In this document: positions 5,936-20,158 of the stretch, piece after piece
Numbering within the stretch: the first letter of the stretch is position 1
How the letters are laid out: each line of letters opens with the position of its first letter
Virus record (IMG/VR): IMGVR_UViG_3300042317_001116
Coordinates: 1 to 21,549 of that record
Reading direction: 5' to 3' (one strand)
Source of the DNA: a virus
Length of the DNA stretch: 21,549 nt
Notes under the pieces: generated by a model
Told to the model about the DNA's origin: nothing
Seen by the model: the letters and a program-made list of their open reading frames with translations, nothing else
Database searches by the model: none
Made by a program: the position numbers and the translations under genes

Positions 5936-6907
5936 TCAGCCGGTGACGATTCGCATCCGGGCGGCGGCGGCCGCTGCCGCGGCCCGGGCCCCGGCCAGGG
6001 TCGAGACCTTGACCGGCGGCGTCCCCCGCGGGACCGGCGCGGCGTCCGGGATCCCCTCGGGGTAGTCGTCGATCCACACGTCCACCTCGAGGCCGGCGGC
6101 GGCCGCGGCGGCCCGCTTCTGGGTGCCGGTGCCGCAGAGCAGCAGCCCGGCCAGGTCGAGGTCGCCGAAGGCCAGCCGCAGCTCGTCGCGGTTGGCTTCG
6201 TTGTCCTCGCGGCGCGAGATGCACACCACGCGATTGCCGCGCCCCGTGGCGTCCACGATGAAGGACCGCCACAGGCCGGGCGCGGCGGTGAACGTGCGGT
6301 CGTAGTCGATCGAGATCGTGAGCGGCTTCGGCTCGGCCCGGTGGGCGACCACGCTCCGGAACCGCTTCCAGAGCGGCAGCGACCTGGCCGACAGGCTCGA
6401 GGACGGGTAGGCGGCCCGGGTGACTGGCGACACGTCGTAAAGGCCGGAGGCCTCGTGGACCGTTCGCGTCACGCCGCCGCGTTCGTCCTCGACCCACTCC
6501 TCGCCCTTCGGGTTGACCGTGAACGCGAACGACGACCCGAAGATCGTCTTGGTCCTGATCAGCGTCAGGACCTTCTCGGCGTCGGCCGTCGGCACGGGGT
6601 CGCCTTCGTAGGCCAGACCCTTGTCCGCCTTCGAGATCCGGAGCGTTCCGTTGGTCGTCCGGGCCAGGATCTGGGAATCGTCGTGATTGAACAGGAGCGG
6701 AACGTCCAGCCGCTTCTTCGCCAGGATCTTGTCGAACGACGTCGACGCGAACTTCTCCCGGAATCCTCCCAGGTCCACGGACAGCGAATCCCACGGCGGG
6801 GCGATTCCGCGAATCTTCGGGGCCTCGCCCTCGCGCTCCTCGACGAACAGGCCGTCGTCGCCGATGGCGTCCAGCGACAGGTAGCGTCGTTCGATCTGCT
6901 CGTTCAT
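5936..6907 (-). CDS. HK97 prohead serine protease fused to a compact HAD-like domain
   Basis: A 323-residue protein. Residues ~1-180 are a U35-type prohead protease: 'IRGIAPPWDSLSVDLGGFRE', a candidate catalytic His75 in PLLFNHDDS, candidate Ser125/126 in IFGSSFAFTV, and the conserved strand 'GLYDVSPVTRAAYPSSS'. Residues ~195-285 carry all four motifs of a HAD-superfamily phosphohydrolase: D201-x-D203-x-T205 in LTISIDYDRTFT, S231 in VVCISRRE, K264 in GTQKRAA and D280/D281 in VWIDDYPE. The tail is Ala-rich. HK97-type proteases are usually shorter and lack this part. The ATG overlaps the portal stop (ATGA). The protease would mature the capsid; the HAD domain's substrate is unknown. Confidence 0.85.
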   Translation of the reverse strand: MNEQIERRYLSLDAIGDDGLFVEEREGEAPKIRGIAPPWDSLSVDLGGFREKFASTSFDKILAKKRLDVPLLFNHDDSQILARTTNGTLRISKADKGLAYEGDPVPTADAEKVLTLIRTKTIFGSSFAFTVNPKGEEWVEDERGGVTRTVHEASGLYDVSPVTRAAYPSSSLSARSLPLWKRFRSVVAHRAEPKPLTISIDYDRTFTAAPGLWRSFIVDATGRGNRVVCISRREDNEANRDELRLAFGDLDLAGLLLCGTGTQKRAAAAAAGLEVDVWIDDYPEGIPDAAPVPRGTPPVKVSTLAGARAAAAAAAARMRIVTG

Positions 6908-11522: not shown

Positions 11523-12256
11523 GAAATGGCGATATTCCACTTGCGCGACAGGTAGCGGGCCACCTGTGTCACTTCGCCATCCGTCAAGTCGCGGTCGTAA
11601 TAGATAAACTCAGCAATGCCACCATTCAGTGGCAATGCGGGCAACGTACTCAACGCGAATAACTTCATGTCGTAACTGCCGGACAGTTGCAGGGTGTATG
11701 TGGCATCCGCGCCGAAGACACCGTTCTGGTACACGCGGACGCTGCCAGTGCGTACGACGCCTGCCCCGATAACCCAGGTGTTGAAAGAATATGCCGGCCC
11801 TTCCGCATGCACCTGCGTTGCAGCAGTACCATGAATGGTGGTACGCAGGCGTGGGCCGGCGGAGGCTGGGTCTTGCACGGCATTTCTGGGGCCGTTATTG
11901 AGGGCTCCGCGCTGCCAAATCCCTTGATTGCTGTTGGCTGCGCGGAACACAAACAAGGCAGTGTTGCTTGGGGTGTACGTCCACGCCGGGATTACCATGT
12001 GCTGGGCAGCTGCCGTTCTTAGCGTGGCGCGTCCGTTGAGATCGTTGGCCGTGTAGGTCGGCTGCGCTGCGGCTGTGGCCTGCGCCGCGTGCCGAGCGTT
12101 GCCGCTCTTGTCTCGCCACTCGCTGACGGTGGAACCGTTGAGCGTGATGGTGGTCGAATCAGACCCATCTAGCCATACAGCCAGGCTGGCTAACTGCCTG
12201 GGGTCTGTCAGGCCGCTGGCCCTTGGGCGAAGCAATCTCGGATTCATCGGGCACAT
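11519..12256 (-). CDS. LamG/concanavalin-like tail fibre or receptor-binding protein
   Basis: A 245-residue protein. After a short basic start the sequence 'LASLAVWLDGSDSTTITLNG' followed by 'VSEWRDKSGNARHAAQ' and 'QPTYTANDLNGRATLR' is the recurrent opening of LamG-like/concanavalin jelly-roll modules found in phage and surface proteins. The end, 'NGGIAEFIYYDRDLTDGEVT' then 'VARYLSRKWNI', is the matching conserved C-terminus of that module. This points to sugar or surface binding. The start could be the ATG at 12256 or at 12247; neither has a good ribosome site. Lower GC and different codon use than the head genes suggest recent exchange. Confidence 0.7.
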   Translation of the reverse strand: MCPMNPRLLRPRASGLTDPRQLASLAVWLDGSDSTTITLNGSTVSEWRDKSGNARHAAQATAAAQPTYTANDLNGRATLRTAAAQHMVIPAWTYTPSNTALFVFRAANSNQGIWQRGALNNGPRNAVQDPASAGPRLRTTIHGTAATQVHAEGPAYSFNTWVIGAGVVRTGSVRVYQNGVFGADATYTLQLSGSYDMKLFALSTLPALPLNGGIAEFIYYDRDLTDGEVTQVARYLSRKWNIAIS

Positions 12257-12291
12257 GCGGGCGCGTCTCTAGAGTGGTGATGTGGCGACGT

Positions 12292-12738
12292 TCAGATAAC
12301 CCGCCAGCGGTCCGTCGTGCCGTCGTACACGAGCAGGGCCGCACCGCCCTTGGCGGCCAGGACGTAGTCGCCCTCCCAGGGGACCAGGATCCGGTTCACG
12401 TCCGTCGAGTCGGCGCTGGCGTGCTTCAGCGTGATCGCGTCGGTCGAGTCGACGTTGATCAGGAGAATCGCGTCCCCGTCGTTCCGGGCCACGATCCCGG
12501 TGATGTTCCGGGCCGCGTTGGCCGTGAGCCGGAAGATGTCCTTCCCGGCCCCGGGCTCGTAGTTGTTTTGGTTCGCGGTGATCTCCGCCGGGCTCTGGAC
12601 CGTGTTGGTCCTGGCCAGGTCCACGATCGACCCGATCGTGACCTTCTGGGTCTCGGTGCCGGCCGCGTTGGTGGCCGGGACGATCGCCCCAGCGGCGGCG
12701 CTGCCGGACGGTAGTTCGGAGATCTTGACGTCTGCCAT
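12292..12738 (-). CDS. phage tail fibre/structural protein
   Basis: A 148-residue protein starting MADVKISELPSGSAAAGAIV. The opening 'VKISELPSGSAA...VPATNAAGTETQKVTI' is a recurrent N-terminus of phage tail-fibre or virion proteins with a beta-prism attachment module. The rest is beta-rich (ITGIVARNDGDAILLINVDS, GDYVLAAKGGAALLVYDG) and ends DGTTDRWRVI, an end common to short beta-sandwich virion proteins. It is followed by the LamG-like gene after a 35-base gap. The two may form an adaptor plus receptor-binding pair. Confidence 0.7.
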   Translation of the reverse strand: MADVKISELPSGSAAAGAIVPATNAAGTETQKVTIGSIVDLARTNTVQSPAEITANQNNYEPGAGKDIFRLTANAARNITGIVARNDGDAILLINVDSTDAITLKHASADSTDVNRILVPWEGDYVLAAKGGAALLVYDGTTDRWRVI

Positions 12739-12742
12739 GGTG

Positions 12743-12910
12743 TTATTGCTCCGTCCGGAGGAAGTGGCCGTTCTCGGCCTGGAGTTGGTTCCCGGCCTCG
12801 GTCAGGATCGTGTTTGGGCTGGCCGGCTTCCGCCGCAGCTGCTTCCGCAGCAGCGAGAGGATCCGGTTGTTCCGGGGCGGGCTGCGGCGCGGCGGGGGGA
12901 TTCTGGTCAT
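12743..12910 (-). CDS. small basic hypothetical protein
   Basis: A 55-residue frame starting MTRIPPPRRSPPRNNRILSL and ending near NGHFLRTEQ. It is basic and Pro/Arg-rich at the start with a short helix (ILSLLRKQLRRK), then a polar C-terminus. It fits tightly between the HTH gene (4 bases apart) and the fibre gene, and its 3' end supplies the GGAG-type ribosome site of the next gene. There is no good ribosome site of its own, so coupling or non-coding status is open. Confidence 0.45.
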   Translation of the reverse strand: MTRIPPPRRSPPRNNRILSLLRKQLRRKPASPNTILTEAGNQLQAENGHFLRTEQ

Positions 12911-12914
12911 GGTG

Positions 12915-13280
12915 TCAGGGTAGGGGTGGGTGGCCGGTCCCTTGAACCTGGCCCCGCCAGCGTTGGTCGCGTTCCTCGTCGCTCCAGGCCTGCTGCTCGA
13001 GCAGCGTCAGCCGGCCGTAGATCTCCTCCTCGGTGGGATCGTTCGGCCGCCGTCGGCCCCCGGTGCCGCGGCCGCGCTTCGGCAGGCCGGCGAGCTGGTC
13101 CTGGAGGCGGGCCTTCAGGGTGTCCACGCTCACCCCGATCGCCTTGGCGATCTGCTGCTGGGTCTCGCCGGCGAGCCAGGCCTGGCGGACCTGTTGGATC
13201 TGCCGGGCCGTCAGGACGTTCCGCCGGGATCCGCGGAACTGGTTCGTCCCGTCCCGGGCCCGAATCGGAAGCCGGCTCAT
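12915..13280 (-). CDS. HTH DNA-binding protein, possible late-gene regulator
   Basis: A 121-residue protein starting MSRLPIRARDGTNQFRGSRR. A clear helix-turn-helix of the resolvase/sigma-4 style lies at ~24-58: LTARQIQQVRQAWLAGETQQ then QIAKAIGVSVDTLKARL. A basic Gly/Arg linker (KRGRGTGGRRRP) and an acidic helical end (EEEIYGRLTLLEQQAWSDEE) follow. The ATG overlaps the RusA stop (ATGA). It is the last gene before the virion genes, so a role in turning on the late operon is plausible by position. A DNA-packaging helper is an alternative. Confidence 0.65.
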   Translation of the reverse strand: MSRLPIRARDGTNQFRGSRRNVLTARQIQQVRQAWLAGETQQQIAKAIGVSVDTLKARLQDQLAGLPKRGRGTGGRRRPNDPTEEEIYGRLTLLEQQAWSDEERDQRWRGQVQGTGHPPLP

Positions 13281-13720
13281 GGCTGGAGCCTCCGGATCGT
13301 GACGATCGTCCGCGGGCGCTCGCCGTCGGCCGCGTAACGCTTCCGCCCGCTCCACTCGACGACCTGGTCGTCGTCGAGCCACACGGACCCGGAGTCCGTG
13401 ATCGCGTCACAGGCCCCCTTGCACAGGTTGTCCCAGTCCCCGGACCGCTTCGGGGGCCAGAGCGGGGCCTTCGCCGTCAGCGACCCGTCCTTCCGTCGAT
13501 GGGACGGCGGCCGCTCGATCACGAACTCGAGGTCGATCGCGTGGGCGTTCGCCGACGGGGTCCGGCCGGCCGCCGCGATCCGGGCCGCCAGGACCGCCGC
13601 GGCCTTGTACCCCGCGATCCCGTTGTCCGGCGTGTAGACGTGGCCGTTCCTGGCCATCCGGGCCCGCGGCTGCGGGAACGGCTGGCCGGGGATCTCGAAC
13701 GTGATCGCGGTCGCATCCAT
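13277..13720 (-). CDS. rusA: RusA-type Holliday junction resolvase
   Basis: A 147-residue protein starting MDATAITFEIPGQPFPQPRA. The RusA fold is shown by the N-terminal 'IPGQPFPQPRARM' strand, the catalytic cluster D95-W-D97-N-L with K101 (SGDWDNLCKGACDAITD, including D105), and acids in 'VWLDDDQVVEW' (D116-D118). These correspond to the metal-binding Asp residues and Lys of RusA, which cuts four-way junctions. In phages it resolves replication or recombination branches before packaging. A GTG four codons upstream (13732) is a possible alternative start. It precedes the HTH gene with an ATGA overlap. Confidence 0.93.
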   Translation of the reverse strand: MDATAITFEIPGQPFPQPRARMARNGHVYTPDNGIAGYKAAAVLAARIAAAGRTPSANAHAIDLEFVIERPPSHRRKDGSLTAKAPLWPPKRSGDWDNLCKGACDAITDSGSVWLDDDQVVEWSGRKRYAADGERPRTIVTIRRLQP

Positions 13721-13798
13721 GCGGCCCGCCACGGTAGGCGATCCGCGGCGCGAGTCCAGCGTTCACCGCGTGGCCAAGGTTTCAATCGAGCGGGGTTC

Positions 13799-14494: not shown

Positions 14495-15448
14495 TCAGGC
14501 CGCCCCCTCGCGGAGCTTGCGGATCATCTCCGCCTTCGTCCGCTCCAGGTCGTCCCCGTCCCCCGGCTCCGCCGTGGACCCCTTGGCCGCCTTCGCCTCG
14601 AGGTAGGCCTGGCGGCGGGCCGCCTGCTCCGAAGCCCCGCGGGCCCACTCCGACGCGGCCTCCGCCGCCGGGCGGCGCTCGTCGCCCGGCCGGGGGCCGC
14701 CGCGCTGCTCCCGGGGGTTGTCGAACTGCCCCCCCAGGACCTTGTCCACGAAGCCGGGGGCGACCAGCTGCGGCAGGGTGACCGGATCCCGGAAGTAGCG
14801 GCACCGTGGCAGGGCCTCGATCGCCGCCAGGGCCTTCTGGAACCATCCCTCCTCCGCCAGCCGGTCCGCCGCCTTGTCCGGGGCGTCCGGCAGCTTCCAG
14901 GGCCTCCCAGTCCCCGCCGCCCAGGCCTTCCGGAGGGTGTCCCAGCCGGGCGGCCCGGCAGGGCCGCTGCCCTGGTCCCCCTGCGCAGCATCCCCGGGGG
15001 AAGAAGAAGAATTTCTCTCTCCTCTATCTCTTCTCTCTGGTGCGCGTTTGCGCACCGACACGTGCGCGACAGCGCACGCACCCGTGCGCTCCTGCGCACC
15101 AGCCCGTGCGCCGTCCGCCCGGACGGAGTGTAAAGCCCGTGACTTAGCGGACTTAGAGAATCGGCGATCCCATCCGGGGATAGCAACGGTCCCGTTGTCC
15201 GCGTCGATCACCAGCCAGCCCACCGCCTCGACCTCCCGCCAGAAGTCCTCGTCGCCCCCGCAGATCCTCCCCAGGAGCCGGACCGACATCCGGGCCGTCC
15301 CGTCGGAGCTGTTCAGGGCCGCCCAGCCCCAGAGCATCAGGAGCCGGCCGACGACCTGGTCGGGGGCCAGCCCCGTCCGGTCGACCAGCTCGAGGACCTC
15401 GGGCTTCTGGGGGAGGCAGACGTCGTAGGGAATCCATTCACCGGCCAT
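14495..15448 (-). CDS. putative phage replication initiator / replisome organiser
   Basis: A 317-residue protein with two domains. The N-terminus (~1-105), MAGEWIPYDVCLPQKPEVLE with 'GRLLMLWGWAALNSSDG', 'LGRICGGDEDFWREVEAVGW' and 'VAIPGWDRRFSKSAKSRA', has the winged-helix pattern of phage replisome-organiser N-domains. A low-complexity linker (~106-165) follows. The C-terminal part (~168-317, GWDTLRKAWAAGTGRPWKLP, LPRCRYFRDPVTLPQLV) is helical, possibly a helicase-loading or partner-binding region. The linker-coding DNA holds an exact 22-bp iteron array, as expected for an initiator that binds inside its own gene. The start at 15448 has AAAGGAGG upstream and overlaps the previous small gene. 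Confidence 0.75.
   Translation of the reverse strand: MAGEWIPYDVCLPQKPEVLELVDRTGLAPDQVVGRLLMLWGWAALNSSDGTARMSVRLLGRICGGDEDFWREVEAVGWLVIDADNGTVAIPGWDRRFSKSAKSRALHSVRADGARAGAQERTGACAVAHVSVRKRAPERRDRGERNSSSSPGDAAQGDQGSGPAGPPGWDTLRKAWAAGTGRPWKLPDAPDKAADRLAEEGWFQKALAAIEALPRCRYFRDPVTLPQLVAPGFVDKVLGGQFDNPREQRGGPRPGDERRPAAEAASEWARGASEQAARRQAYLEAKAAKGSTAEPGDGDDLERTKAEMIRKLREGAA
15000..15126. other. candidate replication origin: 22-bp iterons plus AT/pyrimidine-rich tract
   Basis: GTGCGC occurs at 15040, 15062, 15084 and 15106, exactly 22 bp apart. In the first three copies it is followed after four bases by GCGCAC (15050, 15072, 15094), giving three perfect palindromes; the fourth copy is a half-site followed by another hairpin (CCGTCC/GGACGG, 15111-15126). 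Next to the array lies an unusual low-GC pyrimidine-rich run (about 15000-15038, e.g. TTTCTCTCTCCTCTATCTC), a possible unwinding element. Since 22 is not a multiple of three, the repeat shifts through all frames and is not a protein repeat. The layout matches an initiator-gene-embedded origin. Confidence 0.7.
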
Positions 15449-15599: not shown

Positions 15600-16032
15600 G
15601 GTTGGCCTCCGTAGTCAGTTCGCTTCTCAGGTAGTCCTCGATACTCATTTCCCGTCGCTGGTTGTTGTGTGCCCGGCACTCGATCTGGCCGTTTGCGACA
15701 TTCAGCGGGCCGCCCTTGCATCTGGGAACGACGTGCCCAGCCTCTACTTCGTCGGAGCAAGGCCCCTTGCCGCGGCGCTTGAAGTAGCACTCCGTCCCAT
15801 GTGCGAGCGCGATGTCCACCTTCGTCTTTGCCTCACTGCTCTTTCGTAGGTGGATACTCCACTGCTCGATGTCGTCGATCGTGAACGGAAAAAAGGAATC
15901 GCTCGTGAGGTTGACCCATTCCGCCATCACCGAGAGAGCGGCGCGGCGGCGCTGGTCGGATGTTGGCCTGTCTGCGCCGCCAAGGTCGGCCAGGCGAATG
16001 GCACAGCACAAATGCAGTTCGTTCTCTGTCAT
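15589..16032 (-). CDS. HNH endonuclease coupled to the methyltransferase
   Basis: A 147-residue protein starting MTENELHLCCAIRLADLGGA. The N-terminal ~75 residues are helical and unassigned. The C-terminal HNH domain shows C82, C92, the core 'GHVVPRCKGG' (H100) with N111, and 'IECRAHNNQRR' (C119, H122), a full zinc-type HNH. The ATG overlaps the methyltransferase stop (ATGA, 16029-16032), so both are made from one message. It could be the cutting partner of the methyltransferase, a homing-type nuclease or a DNA-processing enzyme. Lower GC than the flanking genes matches the methyltransferase gene and suggests they moved together. Confidence 0.8.
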   Translation of the reverse strand: MTENELHLCCAIRLADLGGADRPTSDQRRRAALSVMAEWVNLTSDSFFPFTIDDIEQWSIHLRKSSEAKTKVDIALAHGTECYFKRRGKGPCSDEVEAGHVVPRCKGGPLNVANGQIECRAHNNQRREMSIEDYLRSELTTEANHEQ

Positions 16033-17435
16033 GACGCGGTGATCCTCTTGGTGGCGATGTCTGCAAAAATCTCGCTCTTTTCAATGCCGACGTATTTCCG
16101 GCCGTTTCGCACGGCCGCAACGCCGGTGGTCCCGCTGCCGTTGAACGGGTCCACGACCAGGTCGCCTGGCATTGAGGCGCACAGCACGACGGCCTCGACC
16201 AACGCGATCGGAAGCTGGGTCGGGAAGTCTGGGATCCGCTCGGCACATGTCCCAGTCAATCGCGGGATCTGCCAAACGTCGTCCCACAACTTGCCGCCGG
16301 CGGCAGCCCGGCTGTCGCCGTACTTCGTCTGCCGGTCGCTGGGCCGCGTCACGGGCTCAGGGTTAAAAACGAACGACCCAGGATCCTTGACGGCGTAGAA
16401 AATGTGCCGGCTTGTCCGGTTGAACTTGTTCGAGCAGTTCACGCCAAACGTCTCGTACCACTTGATCCACGATCGGATCGTGTATCCGGCGGCCTTCAGC
16501 TCGACGGCATACTCAGCGGCGTACTCGTCGCCGATCATCACCCACAGCGAACCGTCGTCAGTCAGGCAGTCCCAGCACAGCGCAAACCACTGCCGCACCC
16601 ACTTCATGTAGGCTGCGTCCGCGAGCCGGTCGGCCTGCTCGCCGTCTCCGTAGTCGATGCCAATGTTGTACGGCGGGTCTGTGAAGATCAGCCGCGCCGG
16701 CCCGTGTTCGCCGCGGACAGACTCCAGCCCGTCAAGAACGTCCACGTTGAGAATCGACCATTTCGGACGATCTGATTCGTGCCGCTCTGCCGCCGCCTTG
16801 GCGGCAGCCTGCTCGAGTTCCTGGCGGCGCTTGTCGCTGCGGATCTCGCGGAGCGCCTCGGCAGGCTTGATCTCACCGTGAATCACTTTCCTCGCGAGGT
16901 CCGGCCGCTTTGCGATTTGCTCAGCGCGACCCATCGTCGCCGGCGAAACCTTGGCCTCAGCAGCGCGGGCCTCGCGAGTGACAGCCACCTTCGGCTTTTT
17001 AGCCACTGGTTGATCATTGTGATCAACTTCTGGACGAGACTTCAGCCGCCCCGCGTTGTCGCGCGGCCTAACAGCTGCCGCCTGAGACTTCTTGCGATTT
17101 CCTTCCTCGGCAATCTTCGCCAGTTTTGCAGCCCACCTCGCGGACCCCTTGTCGCACTCCAGCTTGATCAGCGCTCGCCGAACGTCCTCAAGGTCGCGCC
17201 GCGCCCCGTTGAGCGACCAGGCGAACGCCCACGGGTCGCCGTCAAACTCCCGCGTTACTGGCTCGACGCCGGCCTCCAGGCAGGCCCTGTAGCGGTTGCG
17301 GCCGTCAAGAATCATGCCGTCGCACAGCGTGATGGGCTCCCGCTGGCCGTTCTCGCGAACGTCGGCCAGCAGCTCGCCGTAGCGGCCGTCGTCCATCATC
17401 GGGAAGGTGTCGGCCGCTGGGTGGTTCTTCATCAT
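16029..17435 (-). CDS. ParB-domain DNA methyltransferase (N4-cytosine/N6-adenine)
   Basis: A 468-residue protein. Residues ~15-110 are a ParB/sulfiredoxin-like domain (EPITLCDGMILDGRNRYRAC). Residues ~160-200 form a ParB-type HTH (SPATMGRAEQIAKRPDLARK). The catalytic domain has motif IV FTDPPYNIG (253-256 DPPY) before motif I DPFNGSGTTG (~429-438), the beta-class order for DNA amino-methyltransferases. The enzyme would methylate A or C within a site. The start at 17435 has an AGAGGA ribosome site ~8 bases upstream; earlier in-frame codons lack one. Codon use is less GC-rich than the neighbours. It may protect phage DNA or mark it for regulation, or act with the coupled HNH nuclease. Confidence 0.9.
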   Translation of the reverse strand: MMKNHPAADTFPMMDDGRYGELLADVRENGQREPITLCDGMILDGRNRYRACLEAGVEPVTREFDGDPWAFAWSLNGARRDLEDVRRALIKLECDKGSARWAAKLAKIAEEGNRKKSQAAAVRPRDNAGRLKSRPEVDHNDQPVAKKPKVAVTREARAAEAKVSPATMGRAEQIAKRPDLARKVIHGEIKPAEALREIRSDKRRQELEQAAAKAAAERHESDRPKWSILNVDVLDGLESVRGEHGPARLIFTDPPYNIGIDYGDGEQADRLADAAYMKWVRQWFALCWDCLTDDGSLWVMIGDEYAAEYAVELKAAGYTIRSWIKWYETFGVNCSNKFNRTSRHIFYAVKDPGSFVFNPEPVTRPSDRQTKYGDSRAAAGGKLWDDVWQIPRLTGTCAERIPDFPTQLPIALVEAVVLCASMPGDLVVDPFNGSGTTGVAAVRNGRKYVGIEKSEIFADIATKRITAS

Positions 17436-17458
17436 GACTCTGATCCTCTTTGGAATGA

Positions 17459-17488
17459 TGCAAACACTTCCGCGCTCTGTTACGTCAA
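17459..17488 (-). promoter_or_regulatory. possible promoter of the methyltransferase cassette
   Basis: The gap between the winged-helix gene and the methyltransferase has a T-run ending TTTTTTGACG. TTGACG (17483-17488) matches a -35 box and is followed after 18 bases by TTTGCA (17459-17464), a weak -10. The gap is A/T-rich for this genome. The cassette may therefore have its own promoter, as morons often do. Confidence 0.3.
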
Positions 17489-17497
17489 AAAAGCCTC

Positions 17498-17857
17498 TCA
17501 CGTCTTCACCCTCCACACCCGCGCCCCGGCCGTCCCGTGGCCCTTCCTCCGGGCCGCGAACCCGACCGCCTCGATCTGCCCCCGGCGGGCCAGCGTCCCG
17601 ATCACGGCCCCGAAGGCCCTGGCGTCGTGCGGGACCAGGCCCAGCCGCTGGCAGTGGTCGACGATCTCCTCGCCGGAGCGGGGCCGGCCGTCCGCCAGCA
17701 GCTCGAGCACCGCGGCCCGGGCGGCGTCAGCGTCGAAGCCGCGCCGCTCGGCCTTCTCCAGGCAGGCGGCCCCGGCCGCGATCCCGGCCTGGCGGGGCGC
17801 GGCGGCCTGGGTGAACAGGGGGCCGAAGTCGGGCCGCTCGGGGTAGTAGTCGCTCAC
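17498..17857 (-). CDS. winged-helix-like DNA-binding protein
   Basis: A 119-residue protein starting with GTG at 17857 (VSDYYPERPDFGPLFTQAAA), overlapping the previous stop as GTGA. Residues ~45-115 look like a winged helix: 'AAVLELLADGRPRSGEEIVD', 'AFGAVIGTLARRGQIEAVGF' and the wing 'GHGTAGARVWRVKT'. Similar small proteins occur in phage replication blocks near resolvases and SSB. Its partner or target is unknown. It is the last GC-rich gene before the methyltransferase cassette. Confidence 0.65.
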   Translation of the reverse strand: MSDYYPERPDFGPLFTQAAAPRQAGIAAGAACLEKAERRGFDADAARAAVLELLADGRPRSGEEIVDHCQRLGLVPHDARAFGAVIGTLARRGQIEAVGFAARRKGHGTAGARVWRVKT

Positions 17858-18151: not shown

Positions 18152-18517
18152 TTACTTCGCGACCTCCGGCGGCGCTGTCCCTGCGGTCGTGATGCCGCTG
18201 CGGCCGGGACCGGCCGGATGGTCGTCTTCGAGCGCCATGACCTCGTAGATGGCGTTCTCGATGTCACGACGAAGCCTGGCGAAAATGCCCTGGCAGTGGG
18301 CGACGGCCTCGACGTGGTGCCGGAACACCCGCTTGTCCGTCGTCGGCCAGTAGTGGTCGACGCGGCCGTCCTCGTAGTGCAGCAGCTCGTACCCTCGCTG
18401 CGGCCGCTCGAACGTGGCCCGCCGGATCCGGTAGCAGGGCCGCTGGTCGTTCGAGATCCACGCGAACGCTTCCCAGACGGTCTCTCCGTGCTCGAACCGA
18501 TCAGAATGGGATGTCAT
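18152..18517 (-). CDS. hypothetical protein downstream of the SSB-like gene
   Basis: A 121-residue protein starting MTSHSDRFEHGETVWEAFAW. It contains aromatic beta-like segments (YRIRRATFERPQRGYELLHY, GRVDHYWPTTDKRVF) and a helix (HHVEAVAHCQGIFARLRRDI), then a disordered Pro/Gly-rich end. The ATG has a GGGAGGG ribosome site and overlaps the SSB-like gene by 17 bases. No known family; placement in the recombination block suggests a DNA-related role. Confidence 0.55.
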   Translation of the reverse strand: MTSHSDRFEHGETVWEAFAWISNDQRPCYRIRRATFERPQRGYELLHYEDGRVDHYWPTTDKRVFRHHVEAVAHCQGIFARLRRDIENAIYEVMALEDDHPAGPGRSGITTAGTAPPEVAK

Positions 18518-18968
18518 CGGGCGACCCTCCCTGGCCGGCGGCCTCCACCTTTTGCTTCGAGGTCCGGGCCGCGGCCTTCGCCGGCGGGGCGGCCGTCCCG
18601 GGGTTGGCCGACGCGGCGAACCCGTTGACGTAGATCACCGGCTCCCCGGTCGTCTTCTTCGTGCCGCGCTTCGTCGTGACGATCACCCGCCGGCCGACCG
18701 CGTCGTCGCCCAGGTCCTGGTCGCGGGGGATCCCCAGCGCGTCCAGGAGTTGCATCGCCGACTTGTGGTCCCGCTTCTGTGACGGGTCCAGCCACTTCTC
18801 GATCGGCGAGTAGTCGCCCTCCACCGGCTGGAGCGTGACGATCAGCGCCGTTCGGCTCTGGTCCTTGGCAGACCACTCATTCACCTTGACGATCTCGCAC
18901 TCGTGATCCCCGTCCGGCAGCAGCTGCTCCGCCGCCTCGTAGTCCTGGTCGAACTGTTCAAACCGCAT
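18501..18968 (-). CDS. single-stranded DNA-binding-like protein with acidic C-tip
   Basis: A 155-residue protein starting MRFEQFDQDYEAAEQLLPDG. The pattern 'LLPDGDHECEIVKVNEWSAK', then 'TALIVTLQPVEGDYSPIEKW' and 'VGRRVIVTTKRGTKKTTGEP' followed by 'VIYVNGF' suggests an OB-type fold similar to phage DUF669/SSB-like proteins. A flexible Ala/Pro/Lys linker ends in SPDDIPF, nearly identical to the tip that SSB uses to bind partners. The start at 18968 has a GGGAGGAG ribosome site; an upstream in-frame start would overlap the previous gene. It follows a Sak4-type ATPase, and annealase/ATPase plus SSB pairs are common in phage recombination. Confidence 0.75.
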   Translation of the reverse strand: MRFEQFDQDYEAAEQLLPDGDHECEIVKVNEWSAKDQSRTALIVTLQPVEGDYSPIEKWLDPSQKRDHKSAMQLLDALGIPRDQDLGDDAVGRRVIVTTKRGTKKTTGEPVIYVNGFAASANPGTAAPPAKAAARTSKQKVEAAGQGGSPDDIPF

Positions 18969-19233
18969 GGGCCGACTCCTCCCTGACTCGCAAGACCAAA
19001 CCCTCGCGGTCCGCATACGCTCGGACCGCCTCAACGTGTTCCGGCTGATATGAAAAGTGGCCGTAGGCCTTCGGCGGTGGCCACAGGCCCGCGGCCTCGA
19101 GGACCCGTTTCACCTCCCAGATCCCCATCGCGATCCGCTCGTCGATCAGCAGCTGCTCGAGCTGCCGGCGAGTGATCCCGGACAGTGGCCAGTCGCCCCT
19201 CATCCGCGTCCAGGTGGTGTGCCATTCAGGCAT
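18958..19233 (-). CDS. hypothetical protein between ATPase and SSB-like genes
   Basis: A 91-residue protein starting MPEWHTTWTRMRGDWPLSGI, with a GGAGGTG ribosome site before 19233. Helical segments 'TRRQLEQLLIDERIAMGIWE' and 'VKRVLEAAGLWPPPKAYGHF', then 'YQPEHVEAVRAYADREGLVL', resemble a small HTH/winged DNA-binding unit. No family can be assigned. It overlaps the ATPase gene by 8 bases and the SSB-like gene by 11 bases, so the three are probably one translation unit. Confidence 0.55.
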   Translation of the reverse strand: MPEWHTTWTRMRGDWPLSGITRRQLEQLLIDERIAMGIWEVKRVLEAAGLWPPPKAYGHFSYQPEHVEAVRAYADREGLVLRVREESAHAV

Positions 19234-20158
19234 TCGCCACCTCCGGCTCGATCTGGTCGTGTCGCTGGCCGATCAGGGCCTCGAGCTGCTTGACCTGGTC
19301 GGCCGTCAGCTGGCCCTCGCTGCCCATCTGCTCGACGTAGTCGCCGGCCTTCCCCAGGGCCTCGACGATCTTGCAGGCGGCGATCCGTTCGGCCAGCCGG
19401 TCGAACAAGCTGGGCTCCGCCCGGGTGGCGGACGGGGCCGGCGCGGCCGCGAAGATCGGGGCCAGGGCCTCGATCGTCATCGGGATCTCCGGGGCCAGCC
19501 CGAACCGGTTCTTCGCGTCCCAGGCCGCGGTCCGCTCCGTGAACAGGACCCGCTCCTTTCCGCCCTTGGCCCGGTTGCGGCCGTCGGCACCCTCGACGAT
19601 CCGCGTCCGGTAGTTGGCGAACAGCAGGAGGTCGCTCCATTCCTTGACCAGCGGCCCGACCTGTTTCGACAGCTTCAGCTCGTAGCGGTCCCAGCCCTCG
19701 TCCATGTCGGGCGGGCTCGTCCGCTTCACGGTCGAGTGACCGACCAGCAGGACGTGGACGCCACGGTCGACGATCTGGTCGCAGAGGCCCAGCAGCGTCG
19801 AGAACTGCTCGGCCAGCTTCACGAACCCCTTCCCGAATCCGTAGTCCTCCACGGACCGCTTCCCGTCCTTCTTCAGCATGTGATCGAGCAGCGACCGTTC
19901 CGCCCAGTCGATCGAGTCGATGACGACCGTCCCGAACCCCTGGGGGTCGCCGCTCAGATCGACGAGCGCCCCGTACAGGGTCATCCAGTCCGGGCACCGC
20001 ACCCGGGCCACGTCGAGCCGCCCCGTCCCGTCCTCGGTGTCGAGGATCACCGGGTTGGGCCACTGGGCGGCCAGCGTCGACTTCCCGATCCCCTCGGTCC
20101 CGTAGGCCACCCCGCGGACGGCCCCCTTCCTGATCCCTCGCTCGATCTTCAGCGCCAT
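19226..20158 (-). CDS. Sak4/RecA-like phage recombination ATPase
   Basis: A 310-residue P-loop ATPase. Walker A is VAYGTEGIGKST (GTEGIGKS at 20-27), after the short strand pattern 'GIRKGAVRGVAYG'. Walker B is GFGTVVIDSIDWAE (~78-82). Downstream come 'VLLVGHSTVKRTSPPDMDEG' and 'GPLVKEWSDLLLFANYRT', typical of the AAA_24 / phage nucleotide-binding group that includes Sak4 single-strand annealing proteins. The C-terminal ~80 residues are helical (FDRLAERIAACKIVEALGK). The ATG at 20158 has AAGGAG upstream. It heads a block with an SSB-like gene, as in other phage recombination modules. A helicase-loader role cannot be excluded. Confidence 0.85.
   Translation of the reverse strand: MALKIERGIRKGAVRGVAYGTEGIGKSTLAAQWPNPVILDTEDGTGRLDVARVRCPDWMTLYGALVDLSGDPQGFGTVVIDSIDWAERSLLDHMLKKDGKRSVEDYGFGKGFVKLAEQFSTLLGLCDQIVDRGVHVLLVGHSTVKRTSPPDMDEGWDRYELKLSKQVGPLVKEWSDLLLFANYRTRIVEGADGRNRAKGGKERVLFTERTAAWDAKNRFGLAPEIPMTIEALAPIFAAAPAPSATRAEPSLFDRLAERIAACKIVEALGKAGDYVEQMGSEGQLTADQVKQLEALIGQRHDQIEPEVANA

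Follow-up and report, generated by a model that had tools for sequence, protein, structure and literature searches.

A candidate in-gene replication origin and its exchangeable helix-iteron cassette in phrog_2509 phage initiators

The locus described here raises the question of what a set of evenly spaced DNA repeats does inside the coding sequence of a replication initiator. The repeats lie in the 21,549-nucleotide (nt) IMG/VR virus record IMGVR_UViG_3300042317_001116, which was analysed over its full length (the window) and on whose + strand all coordinates are given. The gene that contains them, P0001, is an open reading frame on the - strand (positions 14,495-15,448; 317 amino acids). The 'replication initiation protein' profile phrog_2509 matches P0001 residues 1-150 (E 4e-24) and is matched by 49 of 49 aligned homologues. 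An earlier note on this DNA had proposed an iteron-type origin within the gene, a reading that is supported by the spacing kept among relatives, the phrog_2509 match and a neighbouring tract maintained through codon choice (all discussed below). Positions 15,000-15,111 very probably form a theta-type iteron origin inside its own initiator gene, with a self-contained cassette for initiator-origin specificity. An origin inside an initiator gene is a known kind of arrangement.

The repeat array and its conservation

The sequence GTGCGC is present at 15,040, 15,062, 15,084 and 15,106, in the exact 22-base pair (bp) steps that had been reported. The first three copies are completed to palindromes, again as reported, by GCGCAC at 15,050, 15,072 and 15,094, giving perfect 6-4-6 dyads in a 22-bp register: GTGCGC-GTTT-GCGCAC (dyad 1, 15,040-15,055), which adjoins a polypurine tract, GTGCGC-GACA-GCGCAC (dyad 2, 15,062-15,077) and GTGCGC-TCCT-GCGCAC (dyad 3, 15,084-15,099). 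These dyads have no strand; the fourth GTGCGC (15,106-15,111, + strand) is an orphan half-site that keeps the register. Half-site spacing alternates between 10 and 12 bp, which produces the 22-bp dyad period, and 15,040-15,111 is the sole place in the window with three such dyads in register. When the gene was recoded synonymously 50,000 times, with the encoded peptide fixed and the gene's own codon usage, three in-register dyads never arose (0/50,000) and seven copies of one hexamer were reached once (1/50,000). Since the period is also out of frame and the peptide is without repeats, the constraint appears to act on the DNA and not on the protein, as the earlier note held. Scarcity of GTGCGC elsewhere was considered as a special feature and rejected: the 2 copies found compare with approximately 27 when the whole window is dinucleotide-shuffled, but the higher-order expectation is 3.3.

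Homologues were collected in two stages. Viral loci encoding relatives were fetched first (79 loci); a deeper search then added relatives (approximately 26-40% identity) both in named phages and in genomes of Pseudomonas, Enterobacterales, Planctomycetota, Verrucomicrobiota and others. The resulting family set has 168 distinct linkers of homologues, drawn from viral contigs, from prophages and from named phages (Pseudomonadota, Planctomycetota and Verrucomicrobiota). The clade of the window has three iteron sequences: GTGCGC-N4-GCGCAC, GGGGCGC-N3-GCGCCCC and ACGCGC-N3-GCGCGT. Dyads recur every 22 bp in 34/34 GTGCGC intervals and 61/62 GGGGCGC intervals, and every 21 or 22 bp in ACGCGC arrays. 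The comparison of homologues suggested in the earlier note therefore favours its reading, with 22-bp spacing in 95 of the 96 intervals of the first two classes against a background of changing linker residues and changing iteron sequence. In both of these classes dyads start in all three codon frames. The linkers of the viral loci differ in length and peptide, with tandem dyads directly ahead of the polypurine tract; an extra 22-bp unit is accommodated without frame loss in L032, whose linker (four dyads) is 21 coding bases longer than those of several three-dyad genes.

For nearly all 168 linkers, the winged-helix domain is followed by the basic helix, then by the half-sites and finally by the polypurine tract. 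The half-sites come in at least ten spellings, among them GTAACGC (the commonest), GTCCGG, GTCCGC, GTCACG, GTGGCG, GTTGCG and GTAGAC in addition to GTGCGC, GGGGCGC and ACGCGC. The distance between neighbouring half-sites, which stand in direct or inverted orientation, is mostly 9-13 bp, or about one helical turn. The best repeated hexamer has a mean of 4.0 copies per linker, compared to 2.1 after synonymous recoding, and 127 of the 168 linkers are individually significant (p<0.05).

The polypurine tract (AGAGAGAAGAGATAGAGGAGAGAGAA) occupies 15,013-15,038 on the - (gene) strand and is proposed to be the DNA-unwinding element. No other 26-mer in the window reaches 25/26 purines on either strand, and such a tract is kept in nearly all homologues. 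A polypyrimidine block (TTCTTCTTCTTCCCCC) with a bias to TCT serine codons lies 3' of it (14,996-15,011, also on the gene strand). The low-GC pyrimidine flank that had been described is thus present (40% GC at 15,000-15,040 versus approximately 68% for the window), and is purine when read on the gene strand. Codon choice in the tract is extreme: AGA accounts for 93.5% of tract arginines (n=372) and 4.1% of arginines elsewhere in the same genes (n=3,819). The corresponding values in the GC-rich clade are 91.8% and 2.3%, and in that clade TCT makes up 67% of serine codons in the polypyrimidine block versus 8% elsewhere. The polypurine tract is a DNA-level feature held through codon choice. It is also fixed relative to the array: the purine run starts 0-2 nt (usually 1-2 nt) past the last half-site in 118/146 arrays, and this last half-site has the same orientation in 125/146.

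These features suggest a mechanism in which initiator protomers would bind half-sites about one helical turn apart, and hence all on one face of the DNA. The lower-GC polypurine/polypyrimidine tract adjoining the last half-site would melt, and the C-terminal part of the initiator would then recruit the helicase-loading machinery.

A helix that varies with the iterons

The predicted structure of P0001 has three parts. An N-terminal winged-helix domain (residues 1-92; 15,173-15,448, - strand), assigned from the AlphaFold2 (AF2) model and its structural neighbours, has a predicted local distance difference test score (pLDDT) of about 90-98 over residues 11-90 and 70-72 in the first ten residues. 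It is followed by a long basic helix predicted from residue 99 to about 122-126 (block pLDDT 53-76), which we propose as the specificity helix (residues 99-126; 15,071-15,154, - strand). The C-terminal region (residues 169-317; 14,498-14,944, - strand) is helical in the AF2 model, is presumed to recruit the replisome and matched no Pfam family. The array had been mapped to the linker between two domains, and this is nearly exact: it covers codons 113-137 and runs into the disordered linker (about 127-168), but starts in the C-terminal half of the predicted helix.

Mutual information between protein positions and iteron class was computed over 90 non-redundant rows and 11 iteron classes. The highest normalised values of all positions belong to residues 111 (0.90), 107 (0.76) and 114 (0.71), encoded on the - strand at 15,116-15,118, 15,128-15,130 and 15,107-15,109, respectively, which form one face of the helix (i, i+4, i+7). 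Their neighbours track class weakly or not at all (105, 0.14; 106, 0.15; 108, 0.31; 110, 0.0), and winged-helix columns average 0.32 with a maximum of 0.67. Because residues 107 and 111 are encoded outside the array DNA in the window, their association with class is not a trivial outcome of iteron coding. Residue 111 pairs with the half-sites as follows: V111 with GTAACG, A111 with GTGCGC, H111 with GGGGCGC, N111 with ACGCGC, K111 with GTCCG[G/C] and M111 with GT[T/G]GCG. The best winged-helix tree requires no fewer than 22 changes of class and no fewer than 19 of residue 111; GTCCGG together with D107/K111 is found in three places with well-supported branches between them. Four loci that were read after the rule had been stated all fit it: L282, L283 and L285 (Salmonella E15-type, Cobetia Carin1 and phiPSA1; K111 with GTCCGC) and L284 (a Pusillimonas circular element; V111 with GTAACGC). 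There are exceptions, as K111 pairs with more than one half-site and one ACGCGC row has H107, and the alignment register is assumed for a group of GTAACGC relatives with a shortened helix. Sign tests on independent pairs had too few well-supported pairs for significance in any class; among the pairs listed, the direction is as predicted. This pattern indicates that the basic helix following the winged helix, rather than the winged helix itself, probably contacts the variable bases.

Helix and iterons are also replaced together between near-identical flanks. When L009 (GTGCGC) is compared to L032 (GGGGCGC), the winged-helix DNA is 93% identical and the downstream DNA 96% identical, with 33-53% identity in the helix-plus-iteron blocks. 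The L040/L056 pair has a similar pattern (flanks mostly 80-100% identical, cassette about 30-50%). The swapped segment is approximately 100 bp in length, beginning near codon 104 and ending at the last half-site; the tract and the C-terminal part are retained.

A variant that shares the origin reading assigns base recognition to the recognition helix of the winged-helix domain, with residues 107, 111 and 114 hitchhiking with the adjacent iterons during recombination. At most about 40 bp separates the codons of these residues from the array, to which whole-cassette exchange also links them, and RepA_N proteins contact DNA through a winged helix-turn-helix (PMC5703833). This variant is nonetheless unlikely: only one helix face tracks class, identical pairings of residue and class reappear in lineages far apart, and iterons differ between genes whose winged-helix DNA is 92-95% identical. 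On the favoured reading, residues 107, 111 and 114 of the specificity helix would do most of the base-specific reading. Because this helix is encoded directly beside the iterons, the two would be exchangeable as one cassette of approximately 100 bp, and each exchange would create a new self-consistent origin specificity with the rest of the initiator unchanged. The reason for swapping may be escape from incompatibility or from origin-directed antagonists. In its broadest form, this proposal is that phrog_2509 initiators read their origins by a single helix added onto a winged-helix body that itself changes little, following a partly decipherable residue-half-site code, and that the exchangeable unit provides a new self-compatible specificity per recombination, which phages of hosts in several phyla would use as an escape from incompatibility or origin-directed antagonism; we regard this as rather more plausible than not.

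Two of these points go beyond the earlier note: the half-site of the array belongs to a set of at least ten classes, and specificity appears to be determined by the helix that precedes the array and is swapped along with the repeats. We found no earlier description of the helix-iteron covariation or the minimal cassette in the literature searched, in which subscription journals were thinly covered; as far as that literature shows, the helix-half-site correspondence, the minimal cassette and the family-wide demonstration appear new. Candidate origins have been found, from sequence alone, for a phage family for which we found no mapped origin, including cultured Pseudomonas, Xanthomonas, Escherichia and Cobetia phages and a circular phage-plasmid record. 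The family also offers naturally occurring pairs of initiator helix and DNA half-site with which to study how initiator-origin specificity can change without passing through an incompatible intermediate.

Alternative readings and contrary evidence

The array might instead be an operator, through which the initiator or another dimeric phage regulator represses transcription through the gene (autoregulation). Dyads of 16 bp on a 22-bp period would suit a dimeric DNA-binding protein, and binding without origin function would also yield covariation between class and residues. We consider this improbable, as the array is approximately 340 bp inside the coding region and is tied in nearly all homologues to a codon-constrained polypurine tract that an operator does not need; moreover, the gene is a replication initiator, and lambda O, SPP1 gp38 and pSK41 Rep likewise carry in-gene origins. 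A role of the repeats in mRNA, as hairpins affecting attenuation, translation pausing or mRNA stability, is very improbable: each dyad could fold into a GC-rich hairpin in the transcript, but the half-sites of relatives also occur as direct repeats at approximately 11-12 bp, which form no hairpin and keep the helical phasing, and covariation of class with residues of a DNA-binding protein is not predicted. That the repeats are a functionless by-product of slippage or of low-complexity coding in a change-tolerant linker rich in Arg, Ala and Glu is extremely improbable, given the out-of-frame period, the unrepeated peptide, the 0/50,000 result and the fact that lineages encoding different residues nonetheless keep the 22-bp period.

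Several observations weigh against an origin read by the specificity helix. The GC-skew check named in the earlier note does not help the origin reading and may even speak against it: cumulative skew is without the minimum expected at a bidirectional origin, and peaks at approximately 13.5 kb. The tract is not the most AT-rich site of the window, in which a few other 40-mers are equally AT-rich, and a few homologues (such as L208) are without a recognisable array. We looked for, and did not find, a class-specific shortage of half-sites in the rest of the genomes, and published binding or replication data were not found for any family member. With respect to the helix, residues 99-126 are predicted by AF2 at moderate confidence only, in the window's own class the iterons themselves encode residue 114, residues adjoining the iterons could partly hitchhike with them, and strongly supported branches in the tree are few.

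Known systems and neighbouring features

The note had likened the locus to lambda ori, in which four iterons of approximately 18 bp in the middle of gene O are followed by an AT-rich tract (PMC7466680). The layout bears this out, with mid-gene iterons beside a low-GC tract: lambda iterons lie at 39,034-39,118 with spacings of 20, 24 and 23, and occupy codons ~117-144 versus 113-137 in the window gene. The likeness does not extend to detectable sequence homology, as alignment of the family profile with lambda O by hhalign gave a probability of 0.05 of 100 (at low power, the lambda side being a single sequence), with no Pfam hit. Lambda iterons also vary little among the relatives compared in PMC7466680, whereas the phrog_2509 family has at least ten half-site classes and a polypurine tract.

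RepA_N initiators (pSK41 and pTZ2162 Rep) have a winged-helix N-terminal domain that binds Rep boxes located centrally inside rep, an origin-encoded linker that is dispensable and a C-terminal part that contacts host machinery; in a pPR9 chimera, the N-terminal domain and origin were exchanged together (PMC5703833). The repeats in the window, as putative boxes, likewise lie inside the gene between domains 1-92 and 169-317. The nearest structural neighbours of the isolated N-terminal domain are RepA_N plasmid initiator domains (5kbj, 4pql and 4pt7; Z 6.2-6.4, 83-84 aligned residues). The best full-domain match is 5kbj, the RepA_N N-terminal domain from a Rep-DNA complex, with a Z of 6.4 over 83 residues that is under the level that settles kinship; CAP winged-helix domains match within 1 Z unit of RepA_N. 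A PDB structure search with the full P0001 model returned nothing at E<0.001, and neither the window protein nor any of eight relatives matched the RepA_N family (PF06970) at E 0.1. The phrog_2509 initiator is RepA_N-like in layout and possibly in fold, and is neither lambda O nor RepA_N by sequence. The exchanged units differ as well: in RepA_N a domain plus origin of approximately 500 bp, in phrog_2509 a helix-plus-iteron cassette of approximately 100 bp with the winged helix kept.

In the PLE satellites of Vibrio cholerae, a RepA_N DNA-binding domain and ori co-vary and are swapped as a compatible module, with cognate pairing demonstrated experimentally; the origin-directed ICP1 nuclease Odn supplies a selective reason for this swapping (PMC8263062). 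PLE differs in having its origin between genes and in exchanging the DNA-binding domain as a whole. In SPP1 gp38/oriL and other replisome organizers, direct repeats and an AT-rich DNA-unwinding element lie within the initiator gene (PMC6316719), but gp38 belongs to another named protein family and no specificity cassette is described in PMC6316719. YdaU of the Escherichia coli K-12 Rac prophage was rejected as a direct relative: its N-terminus (annotated DUF1376) is unrelated, so the oriJ literature is not directly transferable, and only the C-terminus is common with the phrog_2509-type YdaU of the MN652886 Rac variant (L081). None of the oriJ papers found places oriJ in the gene. The linker of K-12 ydaU (L280:5,620-6,477) has TGTTCAAACA repeats at 6,011-6,021 and 6,045-6,054, and inverted at 6,068-6,078; a second initiator family may therefore use the in-gene layout.

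Two family members are of separate interest. NC_015459 (L284/L286), a circular Pusillimonas 'plasmid' of 41,205 bp, is a phage genome whose sole recognisable replication-initiation genes are a phrog_2509-type initiator with a GTAACGC module and an adjacent ATP-binding protein, making it a candidate phage-plasmid replicating from a GTAACGC-type in-gene origin. L208, from Verrucomicrobia, has a linker with no recognisable half-site array; it may belong to a prophage in decay, or its initiator may use an origin located at a distance. The Uetakevirus-type homologues L088 and L093 have a DnaT-like C-terminal part (L088 matches Pfam DnaT at E 1.6e-18, and L093 carries the annotation 'primosomal protein I'), suggesting that different replisome-recruiting halves can be attached interchangeably to the winged-helix/origin half.

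Genes near P0001 encode a Sak4-like ATPase (19,226-20,158), a single-strand-binding protein (18,501-19,034) and RusA (13,277-13,732), which form a replication/recombination module around the initiator. An N6/N4 DNA methyltransferase is encoded nearby at 16,029-17,516; its N-terminal part has a weak ParB-like match (phrog_4715, E 1e-4). The sharpest AT skew in the window (about -0.32 to -0.34 on the + strand) is found at 12,000-13,500, near the cumulative GC skew maximum.
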